Assembly (NCBI RefSeq): GCF_026344005.1
Contig: NZ_JAPKNH010000001.1
Location: 992,001-1,056,000, forward strand
Length of the DNA: 64,000 nt
Direction of reading: 5' to 3'
Origin: Kaistia terrae
Lineage (GTDB): Bacteria > Pseudomonadota > Alphaproteobacteria > Rhizobiales > Kaistiaceae
The position numbers were made by a program, and so were the translations under genes. The notes beneath the pieces were generated by a model. That model was not told where the DNA came from, searched no databases, and worked only from the letters and a program-made list of their open reading frames with translations. Shown piece after piece: positions 346-3,269 of this stretch; position 1 is the stretch's first letter, and every line of letters begins with the position of its first letter.

Positions 346-1485
346 ATGACGACTGAGCGAACCGGCAATTTCGATGCCGAGATGGACCGCCGGCTGATGG
401 CCGTCGCGCTTCGGTTCGGCCGTCGCAATCTCGGTTCCACGGCGCCCGCGCCCGCCGTCGGGGCGCTTGTCGTGGGTTCAGAGAGCGGCACGCCCATTAT
501 CCTCGGTCGTGGCGTGACGGCGGCCGGTGGCGCCGCCCGCGCCGAAACAAGTGCGCTCGTCATGGCGGGCGATGCGGCGCGCGGCGCCACGCTCTACACC
601 ACACTGGAGCCGTCGCCCGATCCTGTCGAAGGCGTTTCTGTCGTCCAGACGATGATCGCGGCGGGCGTTTCTCGCGTTGTCAGCGCGCTGGAAAATCCCG
701 ATCCGCGCGTTGCCGGTCGCGGCCACGCACAATTGCGCGACGCCGGCATCGCCGTCACGACCGGGGTGCTTGGCGACGAGGCGCGGCGGCAGCATGCCGG
801 AGTTATCTCCGTTCTGGCGGCGGGAAGGCCGCATGTCACCCTGAAGCTTGGCGTTTCCGCCGACGGCATGATCGGCCGCGTTTCGGGCGAGCGCATGCTG
901 GTCTCGGGCCGCGAGGCATTCGCGCGGCTTCAGACCATGCGCATCGAGGCTGACGCGACGCTGATCGGCATCGGCACGGCGATGATCGACGATCCGAGCC
1001 TGACCGTCCGGGTTCCGGGCCTGCGCGCCCATTCTCCGATCCGCATTGTTCTGGACACGCAGGCGCGGCTTTCGCCTCATTCGTCGTTGGTGAAGGGCGC
1101 CGCCGACACCGCACTCTGGGTCGTTTGCAGCGCCGAGGCGCCACTCGTCAATCGGGTCGCATTGAGGGCGGCGGGCGTCGAGGTGCTGGAGGTTGGCACC
1201 GGTTCCGGCGGAGTCGATCTTGAGGCCGCCTTGCGCCTGCTGGCTGAGCGCGGCGTCACGCGCCTGCTGGCGGAGGGTGGCGCCAAGGTCGCTGCGTCCC
1301 TTTTGGCGCGCGGCATGTTGGACGAGGTCGTCTTGTTTCACGCGCCGGTGGTGGTCGGGCCGGATGGCGTGCGTGCGCTCGCCGGCGGCGCGCTCTCGGC
1401 AATCGAGCGCAGTCCGCGCTTCCGCCGCTTCGAAGAAGCGCGTCTCGGCGAAGACCGAATGGTTCGCTACGAAAGGGCAGTCTGA
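346..1485 (+). CDS. ribD: RibD with intact reductase but degenerate deaminase domain
   Basis: Bifunctional RibD normally deaminates and then reduces the pyrimidine intermediate of riboflavin synthesis. This 379-residue protein has the usual length and two domains. The N-terminal deaminase fold (about 10-150) has lost every zinc ligand. The HAE motif reads R65-A-E, the first Cys of PCxxxxxxPPC is S90, the second position is V99, and the PNPxVG Asn is A35. The C-terminal reductase domain (about 165-375) looks normal: VTLKLGVSADG, GIGTAMIDDPSLTVR, LLAEGG. The ATG at 346 is chosen because the longer frame from 235 runs through the RIME-like repeat. An ATG at 382 is a weaker alternative. ribE starts 2 bases after its stop. 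The protein probably works as a reductase only, which is an inference. Confidence 0.88.
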   Translation: MTTERTGNFDAEMDRRLMAVALRFGRRNLGSTAPAPAVGALVVGSESGTPIILGRGVTAAGGAARAETSALVMAGDAARGATLYTTLEPSPDPVEGVSVVQTMIAAGVSRVVSALENPDPRVAGRGHAQLRDAGIAVTTGVLGDEARRQHAGVISVLAAGRPHVTLKLGVSADGMIGRVSGERMLVSGREAFARLQTMRIEADATLIGIGTAMIDDPSLTVRVPGLRAHSPIRIVLDTQARLSPHSSLVKGAADTALWVVCSAEAPLVNRVALRAAGVEVLEVGTGSGGVDLEAALRLLAERGVTRLLAEGGAKVAASLLARGMLDEVVLFHAPVVVGPDGVRALAGGALSAIERSPRFRRFEEARLGEDRMVRYERAV

Positions 1486-1487
1486 GT

Positions 1488-2099
1488 ATGTTTACGGGCA
1501 TCATTACCGACGTCGGCAAGGTCGCCGCCGTCGAGCGCCGCAACGACGTCAACAAGATCACCATCGACAGCCGCTATGACGGCGAGACGATCGCCATTGG
1601 CGCGTCGATCGCCTGCGCCGGCGTCTGCCTGACCGTGATCTCGATCGACAAGCAGCCGAATGGACGCACCTTCTTCGACGTCGAGGCAGCTCCCGAAACG
1701 CTGGCGCTGACGGAAGTCGGTCATTGGGAAGCCGGCCAGCCGCTCAATCTCGAGCGCGCCCTAAAGCTTGGCGATGAACTGGGCGGCCATATGGTCTCCG
1801 GCCATGTCGACGGCCTTGCCACCATCGTCAGCCGCGAGGATCTCGGCGAAACGACGCGATTTGTCTTCGAAGCGCCGGCTGATTTGGCGCGTTTCATCGC
1901 CACCAAGGGCTCCGTCGCGCTCGATGGAACATCGCTGACGGTGAACTGGGTCGAAGGCAACCGCTTCTCGGTGCTGCTCATCCCGCACACGCTGAGCCCC
2001 GATGTTACGACCTGGGGCGCGCGAAAAGTGGGCGACCGCATTCACCTCGAAGTCGACCAGATGGCGCGCTATGTGGCACGTCTGACAGAAGCCGCGTAG
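1488..2099 (+). CDS. ribE: Riboflavin synthase alpha subunit
   Basis: This 203-residue protein dismutates two molecules of 6,7-dimethyl-8-ribityllumazine to riboflavin and the pyrimidinedione. It has the two lumazine-binding barrel repeats. The first begins [12 protein letters not shown] and the second begins around residue 98 at the segment [21 protein letters not shown] and [11 protein letters not shown] are typical of the second barrel. The ATG lies two bases after the ribD stop, so the two genes are likely co-transcribed and coupled. In enterobacterial naming this gene is ribC. Confidence 0.95.
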
Positions 2100-2292: not shown

Positions 2293-2745
2293 ATGAGCGA
2301 TTCGGCCCCCCACCTTCTCGTCATCGATGCCCGCTTCTACGACGACATCTCGGACGAGCTGTTCAATGGCGCCAAGGCCGCCATCGAAGCTGCCGGCGCG
2401 ACCTTCGAGCGTGTATCGGTTCCCGGCGTCCTCGAGATCCCGCCCGCGCTTTCGATGGCGCTGGCTGCCATGGATGAGGGTGAAGTCCAGTATGACGGTT
2501 TCGTCGTGCTCGGCTGCGTTATCCGCGGCGAGACCTCGCATTACGACATCGTCGCCAACGAGTCGGCCCGCGCCATCATGGACATGGCCGTGATCGAGTC
2601 GCTCGCGATCGGCAATGGCATCCTGACCGTCGAGAACGACGCGCAGGCCTATGCCCGCGCTCGCGTCAGCGAAAAGAACAAGGGCGGCGCCGCCGCCGAG
2701 GCCGCGCTCGCCATGGTCGCCCTTCGCACCAAATTCGGCTTCTGA
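2293..2745 (+). CDS. ribH: 6,7-dimethyl-8-ribityllumazine synthase
   Basis: The 150-residue lumazine synthase condenses 5-amino-6-ribitylaminouracil with 3,4-dihydroxy-2-butanone 4-phosphate. Family signatures are [23 protein letters not shown] with the catalytic His, and a C-terminal segment [11 protein letters not shown]. The ATG at 2293 gives the normal family length; the longer frame from 2113 reads an unrelated 60-residue leader. The 193-base gap after ribE contains no recognisable FMN riboswitch and no other gene. nusB starts two bases after the stop, the usual alphaproteobacterial arrangement. Confidence 0.95.
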
Positions 2746-2747
2746 TC

Positions 2748-3269
2748 ATGACCACCGCTGACAAAGCCCCGCCGACGCCGCGGGCCTTTCGCCCGGCCAA
2801 CCAGCGGGGCGCGGCCCGGCTGGCGGCCGTTCAGGCGCTCTACCAGCTTGATGTCGGCGGTGCGCAACTGACCGAAGTCGTGGCCGAGTTCGAGAACTAT
2901 CGGCTCGGCAAGGAAGTTGACGGCGATCAGTATCGCGATGCCGATGCCGCCTTCTTCCGGGACATCATCGCCGGTGTCGTGCGCGAACAGCGCAACCTCG
3001 ACCCGGCGATCCACGTCTCCCTGACCTCGGATTGGCCCCTGAAGCGGATCGACGTAACGCTGCGCGCCATCCTGCGCTGCGGTACGTACGAGCTGATGGG
3101 CCGCAAGGACGTCCCCGGACGCGTCGTCATCACCGAGTATGTCGACATTGCCCGCGCCTTCTTTGGCACAGGCGACGAGCCGCGCATGGTCAATGGCGTG
3201 CTCGACACCGTCGCCCGCAAGCTGCGCGGCGAAGAGTTCGGCGAAGAACCGCCAGCCGACAAGGACTGA
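2748..3269 (+). CDS. nusB: Transcription antitermination factor NusB
   Basis: NusB binds boxA RNA with ribosomal protein S10 (NusE) and supports antitermination in rRNA operons. The 173-residue protein is longer than E. coli NusB because of an N-terminal basic extension (about 22 residues) typical of alphaproteobacteria. Conserved pieces are [17 protein letters not shown] near the N-terminus, [23 protein letters not shown], and [11 protein letters not shown] near the end. It sits 2 bases behind ribH and 2 bases before thiL, in one apparent operon. Confidence 0.95.

Follow-up and report, generated by a model that had tools for sequence, protein, structure and literature searches.

A RibD whose deaminase domain appears dead throughout the genus Kaistia

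The RibD protein of Kaistia would be a reductase that carries a pseudoenzyme deaminase domain. Both zinc cysteines and the substrate Asn are gone in all 14 Kaistia genomes in which the locus was read, and the deaminase domain is dead as certainly as sequence can make it. The reading that we favor, at a probability of roughly 0.58, is that the riboflavin pathway still runs in Kaistia, with deamination performed by another enzyme from outside the RibD family. The gene at the center of this account lies in a window of 64,000 nucleotides from Kaistia terrae, the whole stretch of DNA analysed here, where the gene and the relevant positions of its deaminase half are as follows:

346..1485, + strand: ribD, encoding a predicted dead deaminase domain and a reductase domain, 379 aa (translation, TIGR00326 score, AlphaFold2 and PDB fold match)
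346..789, + strand: deaminase-fold domain, residues 1-148, zinc site lost (the limit at 148 was set by us)
448..450, + strand: Ala35, at the substrate Asn of PNPxVG (Asn in 96/96 non-Kaistia RibDs, Ala in 14/14 Kaistia)
538..540, + strand: Arg65, at the zinc His (His in 96/96 outside the genus; in Kaistia His in 10/14, and R, Q, P and P in the other 4/14)
544..546, + strand: Glu67, the catalytic Glu, kept in the window protein and gone in 7/14 Kaistia
613..615, + strand: Ser90, at the first zinc Cys (Cys in 96/96 outside, 0/14 Kaistia)
640..642, + strand: Val99, at the second zinc Cys (Cys in 96/96 outside, 0/14 Kaistia)

The open reading frame at 346-1485 on the + strand encodes 379 amino acids with no internal stop, and the frame is open in 14/14 Kaistia. 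Identity to named relatives, at 83% for K. defluvii, 82% for K. granuli and 80% for K. adipata, puts the window in the genus Kaistia. It scores 209.9 bits against the RibD equivalog TIGR00326 (cut-off 156.35), and any annotation that goes by family scores will label it bifunctional, both deaminase and reductase, a description that, judged by its residues, should not be applied to it. The deaminase family PF00383 is borderline, at 24.5 bits for the protein and 27.5 in a six-frame scan (cut-off 25). An AlphaFold2 model built from an alignment of 28 RibDs retains the fold, with a mean pLDDT of 90.3 and BsRibG (2b3z) as its best PDB match in Foldseek, but such a model is weak evidence since AlphaFold2 takes the fold over from the input alignment. 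Domain order and fold are thus common to Kaistia RibD and the bifunctional RibD/RibG proteins of TIGR00326, as are the reductase residues in the window protein, whereas the zinc ligands and substrate Asn of those enzymes are missing from it. Three PDB entries titled as 3-dehydroquinate dehydratase I from Klebsiella (8dq9, 8dqb and 8dqc) resemble RibD, by sequence or by fold, along almost the entire protein, and their titles look mistaken.

An earlier note on this DNA had read the zinc His, Cys and Cys as replaced by R65, S90 and V99, and the substrate Asn by A35; the presence of N, H, C and C in 96/96 non-Kaistia RibDs bears out each of these substitutions. Nor have the ligands merely moved, because residues 10-148 of the window protein contain no Cys and a single His; on both the alignment and these counts they are lost rather than displaced nearby. 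Across the genus, 12/14 deaminase domains are devoid of any Cys, and the PC motif is absent from 14/14. The zinc-site and substrate roles of these residues have been described for A. baumannii RibD, in the sections of that study available to us, which also cite work in which mutation of the zinc residues left reductase activity unaffected (PMC3668577). We found no precedent for a zinc-less bacterial RibD in the open-licence literature; a paper on Francisella RibD describes five substitutions, four of them within the zinc-binding region, and its accessible passages describe no loss of the ligand set.

The loss reaches further than the earlier note, which concerned this single protein, had claimed: comparison with the closest relatives extends it to 14/14 Kaistia, and agreement among that many genomes argues against assembly error or chance. 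RibD-like matches were present in 61/61 genomes of relatives. Outside Kaistia, N, H, E, C and C occur together in 111/111 rows, which reduce to 96 distinct sequences once identical ones are dropped; this set is not a random sample, and it leaves out more distant RibDs. Of its sequences, 70 belong to the top 80 of 382 named matches, 24 are top matches found across 121 genomes of the order, and two come from the search of the 61 relatives. Among the sequences compared, the zinc-less arrangement in bacteria is confined to the one genus. Change is also concentrated where catalysis would take place. Taking as conserved any position shared by at least 95% of the outgroup, 10/16 conserved positions in the active-site motifs (a set that we chose) differ in half or more of the Kaistia, vs 2/33 in the rest of the domain (Fisher p = 4.7e-5), and in K. 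adipata (G011) six residues of the zinc loop are missing altogether. A tree of RibE, RibH and NusB sets nine Kaistia apart from Prosthecomicrobium plus nine others, at an ultrafast bootstrap of 100. The simplest reading, supported by this distribution and by the tree, is a single loss of the zinc site and the substrate Asn along the Kaistia stem. Records titled Mesorhizobium sp. BR1-1-16 and Bosea sp. SCN18_30_10_14_R1_P_68_18 (L071, L072) also carry a Kaistia-type RibD; their titles are probably wrong, the genomes that appear to correspond to them (G008, G013) being placed in Kaistia.

The reductase half presents a different picture, and one that differs between two sets of Kaistia, here called group A and group B, the latter a label rather than a proven clade (support 39-49):

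790..1482, + strand: reductase domain, residues 149-379 (PF01872, 130.1 bits)
844..846, + strand: Lys167, aligned with BsRibG Lys151, kept in 14/14 Kaistia
988..990, + strand: Asp215, aligned with BsRibG Asp199 (with an inferred tag offset), kept in the window, lost in 7/14 Kaistia
1273..1275, + strand: Glu310, preceding Gly-Gly, taken as Glu290 of BsRibG/AbRibD (from an inferred match of numbering), kept in 14/14

The window protein has the conserved reductase residues K167, D215 and E310 for BsRibG Lys151, Asp199 and Glu290. The earlier description of an intact reductase half therefore holds for it and for six other group A genomes; it fails for the other seven Kaistia. The Asp215 equivalent is Asp in 96/96 RibDs outside the genus and in 7/7 of group A, vs N in five, A in one and H in one of the seven group B genomes (L015-L019, L021, L023). 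The remainder of the domain is well kept in both sets, 33/38 near-invariant positions being retained in all seven group A genomes and 35/38 in all of group B. Chen et al., in 2009, reportedly favored Glu290 over Asp199, and are said to have suggested Lys151 as the residue that picks out the deaminated substrate; Lys167 would hold that position. The A. baumannii RibD study, in the parts available, lists Asp204 among the conserved active-site residues of the reductase and notes that either Glu290 or that Asp has been put forward as the starter of the reaction (PMC3668577). The Ser, Trp and Arg of the same A. baumannii list are R, L and F in the window protein (2b3z alignment), and none of the 96 other RibDs has a Trp at the Trp position either. 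Group B reductases may accordingly be active, altered or weakened. Genome G000 encodes a second PF01872 protein, and G005 and G008 give weak second matches to RibD.

Immediately downstream of ribD lie three genes that we take to be ribE (from gene order and sequence), ribH and nusB:

1488..2099, + strand: ribE, presumed riboflavin synthase, 203 aa (ORF)
2293..2745, + strand: ribH, presumed lumazine synthase, 150 aa (inside ORF 2113-2745, start put at MSDSAPH)
2748..3269, + strand: presumed nusB (ORF)

RibE stands beside ribD in 14/14 Kaistia, matched over at least residues 1-201; RibH was found at 9/14 of these loci, which are short, and was recovered in all five named group B genomes used for dN/dS. 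Rates were estimated by the Nei-Gojobori method, with nusB as rate control, for five group A genomes (the window's own, K. defluvii, K. granuli, K. adipata and a MAG; four for RibH), five group B genomes and up to 11 outgroup genomes; dS was often high and the values are rough. Median dN/dS for the deaminase domain, reductase domain, RibE and RibH was 0.213, 0.108, 0.103 and 0.077 in group A; 0.300, 0.272, 0.160 and 0.098 in group B; and 0.305, 0.357, 0.319 and 0.305 in the outgroup. Purifying selection is evident on the reductase half, RibE and RibH in Kaistia, and is strong for RibE, RibH and the group A reductase. Only in group A does dN/dS of the deaminase domain clearly exceed that of the reductase, and in absolute terms it is no higher than in the outgroup (0.305). 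On these rates (dN/dS 0.21-0.30) and its residues, the Kaistia deaminase domain would be a retained pseudoenzyme under constraint, a constraint that most likely reflects a scaffold role: the fold probably survives for its structural contribution to the RibD subunit and oligomer. Against a running pathway count the loss of Asp215 from the reductase of 7/14 Kaistia and a difference in rate: in the five group B genomes the reductase outpaces RibE (dN 0.221 vs 0.094; outgroup 0.298 vs 0.314), the pattern expected if the entire protein were decaying.

Where, then, might deamination take place? A profile built from seven intact RibD deaminase domains, run against the 14 Kaistia genomes, failed to find the second RibD-type deaminase that the earlier note had envisaged. 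The dead RibD itself scores 161-187 bits in these searches, and no other match rises above about 30 bits. Of two weak matches in G000, the stronger falls at a TadA-like gene. All but one of the genomes are at least 98% complete (13/14), the exception being G007, a 92% complete MAG. The step has therefore not just been handed over to a different recognisable RibD-type enzyme, and elimination leaves a deaminase outside the RibD family, a bypass or a broken pathway. The first of these is the reading that we prefer. With the reductase, RibE and RibH under selection, the lower pathway most likely still runs, and the bacterial-type Lys167 suggests that deamination still comes first and that the reductase still receives a deaminated pyrimidine. 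By elimination, that intermediate would be supplied by an enzyme from outside the RibD family.

The main rival, unlikely in our estimation, is that Kaistia is a riboflavin auxotroph: the vitamin would be imported through RibN, RibD would be decaying from its deaminase end, and RibE and RibH would be late to follow or repurposed. A candidate route for import is present. An FMN riboswitch (RF00050) occurs in 13/14 Kaistia and is absent from G014, the one further family member searched for it. In 2/2 loci read, the gene directly after it encodes an EamA transporter that is RibN-like (74.3 bits in G000) and would on this evidence be a RibN-type riboflavin importer, and the transporter aligns at 9/10 Kaistia loci tested. 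As a marker of a new deaminase the riboswitch was set aside, both genes read beneath it being transporters. The loss of Asp215 in 7/14 Kaistia, with dN raised there, and a GTP cyclohydrolase II domain that is zinc-less in 14/14 also sit comfortably with auxotrophy. Against it stands the strong purifying selection on RibE, RibH and the group A reductase. Auxotrophy is further weakened by G004 (L349), which gave no match to the riboswitch, nor to RibN at the conserved place, and nonetheless keeps, next to its dead RibD, a RibE and a RibH that are 86% and 84% identical to those of the window. A missing GTP cyclohydrolase II is by itself insufficient, since ribBA mutants of S. meliloti and B. abortus are prototrophs, according to the portions available of a study of those bacteria (PMC9478397). 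The open-licence literature yielded no useful report on the growth requirements of Kaistia. If, as we prefer, the pathway still runs, RibN-type import would supplement synthesis in most Kaistia species.

The step upstream of RibD deserves attention in its own right. No GTP cyclohydrolase II is recognisable in Kaistia, the domain fused to RibB having lost its zinc Cys in 14/14; G000 has a single GTP cyclohydrolase II match, which is of this kind. The RibB domain there scores 232.8 bits against TIGR00506 (cut-off 177.45), and the protein shows the RibBX pattern. A second GTP cyclohydrolase II-like protein occurs in 13/14 Kaistia and is absent from the window's genome; the four that were read (L190-L193) have a CTC motif and look URC1-like. 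RibBX, as described in the sections seen of its report, is a fusion of RibB with a GTP cyclohydrolase II domain that is dead (PMC10012899). It presents the same kind of event as Kaistia RibD, a dead domain kept within a bifunctional riboflavin enzyme, albeit in a different enzyme and step, and a RibBX-type protein is found in Kaistia as well. It is conceivable, if doubtful and by some way the boldest of our proposals, that the first two riboflavin steps of Kaistia lie outside known enzyme families altogether, in a new route from a purine nucleotide to the deaminated ribosylaminopyrimidine, with the GTP cyclohydrolase II and RibD deaminase sites both left as dead scaffolds.

A related bypass, in which the ring-opening enzyme uses a nucleotide that has no 2-amino group (XTP, for instance) and deamination becomes needless, has a slim chance. 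It would account for the disappearance of both early active sites, and there is room for such an enzyme in that BrbF-type bacteria open the ring of GTP with an enzyme still to be named: the available text on S. meliloti and Brucella assigns deformylation to BrbF and treats the ring-opening enzyme there as not yet known (PMC9478397). Speaking against the bypass, a zinc-less cyclohydrolase domain is also the only one in relatives whose RibD is intact, G014 among them, and in 6/9 non-Kaistia genomes overall (the first G031 match left out). BrbF itself was considered for Kaistia, and gene context spoke against it in G000, whose sole creatininase-family gene stands beside RidA-like and ABC transporter genes and not between MarR and CobW; the MarR-creatininase-CobW locus was recovered in 3/4 rhizobial genomes (L329, L330 and L331). 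The creatininase-family gene is conserved in 14/14 Kaistia and falls outside the BrbF subgroup.

Equally improbable is a second job for TadA or cytidine deaminase, either of which might also deaminate the riboflavin precursor. The appeal of this idea is that in K. soli (G001) a TadA-like protein and a cytidine deaminase are the sole PF00383 members at E <= 0.001, a search that yielded no further members and led us to reject any other replacement from the CDA family in that species. For the TadA-like proteins of G000 and G001 the best match is the TadA model, yet both fall below its cut-off (132.6 and 133.5 vs 150), with the cytidine deaminases above theirs. PF00383 gives two to seven matches per Kaistia genome, those outside K. 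soli being judged by score and position only. Both kinds of match also occur in sister genera with intact RibD, as far as score and extent can tell, and G007, the MAG, has no TadA-like match; both observations weigh against such a double role.

Returning to a deaminase from outside the RibD family, one candidate, as yet unproven, is an amidohydrolase of CodA-like type (646.8 bits against NF005759 in G000) found in 14/14 Kaistia. It would be a possible source of the deaminated intermediate, as isocytosine, which has the same type of ring as the RibD substrate, can be deaminated by enzymes of its superfamily. That isocytosine deaminases occur in the amidohydrolase superfamily is recorded in the portions seen of a published survey, as is a point against the candidate, namely that most of them are nearer to the 8-oxoguanine deaminase type than to CodA (PMC6186785). 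The same amidohydrolase is present in 6/7 other genomes of the family (G014-G018 and G020), all six with intact RibD, and so does not track the loss of the deaminase. In G000 the gene sits in a cluster (L248:9950-17906) of a creatininase-family gene, a RidA-like gene, an NMT1-type ABC transporter, the CodA-like amidohydrolase and an FAD oxidase. A second amidohydrolase (L349:6943-8175 and matching places) is 29-34% identical to the first and lies ~12-14 kb from the ribN riboswitch in those Kaistia that have both. It was discarded as a universal replacement, being in 12/14 Kaistia among the matches listed, with none in K. adipata (G011) or G007. Comparisons by RibD profile, PF00383 and amidohydrolase family together pinned down no replacement enzyme for the RibD deaminase.

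Plants offer a parallel. Plant PyrR comprises a zinc-less deaminase-like domain and a reductase, and deamination falls to PyrD, a distinct protein of that family. As in Kaistia RibD, a dead deaminase domain is kept ahead of the reductase. The earlier note had suggested by this analogy that the bacterium has split the two steps in the plant manner, with a separate RibD- or PyrD-type deaminase elsewhere in the genome. One side of that suggestion stands, genus-wide, in that a dead deaminase is fused to a reductase under selection; the other does not, for a PyrD-like gene is absent from the 14 Kaistia genomes, as is any second strong profile match, which makes the full plant-like arrangement very improbable. 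Archaeal and fungal reductases with the Rib2 deaminase place the two activities on separate proteins, like the state proposed for Kaistia, but there the order of reactions is reversed and fungal Rib2 still belongs to the zinc deaminase family, in the passages available (PMC8256712). Finally, an artefact or an active deaminase with displaced ligands is scarcely credible, given that the loss recurs in every genome with residues that differ between species and that 12/14 domains have no Cys to offer.

The implications reach beyond one protein. With the site lost in every Kaistia examined and the lower pathway kept, the genus points to a deaminase, or else a route, yet to be found. Such a case is consistent with the unexpected early riboflavin enzyme of rhizobial relatives, which use undescribed early enzymes on the evidence of the parts consulted, although BrbF acts ahead of deamination, unlike the step missing in Kaistia (PMC9478397). 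Kaistia is a cultivable genus with several type strains, and the missing deaminase is open to simple genetics. Kaistia RibD would, in turn, be a bacterial counterpart of the pseudoenzyme domain of plant PyrR.
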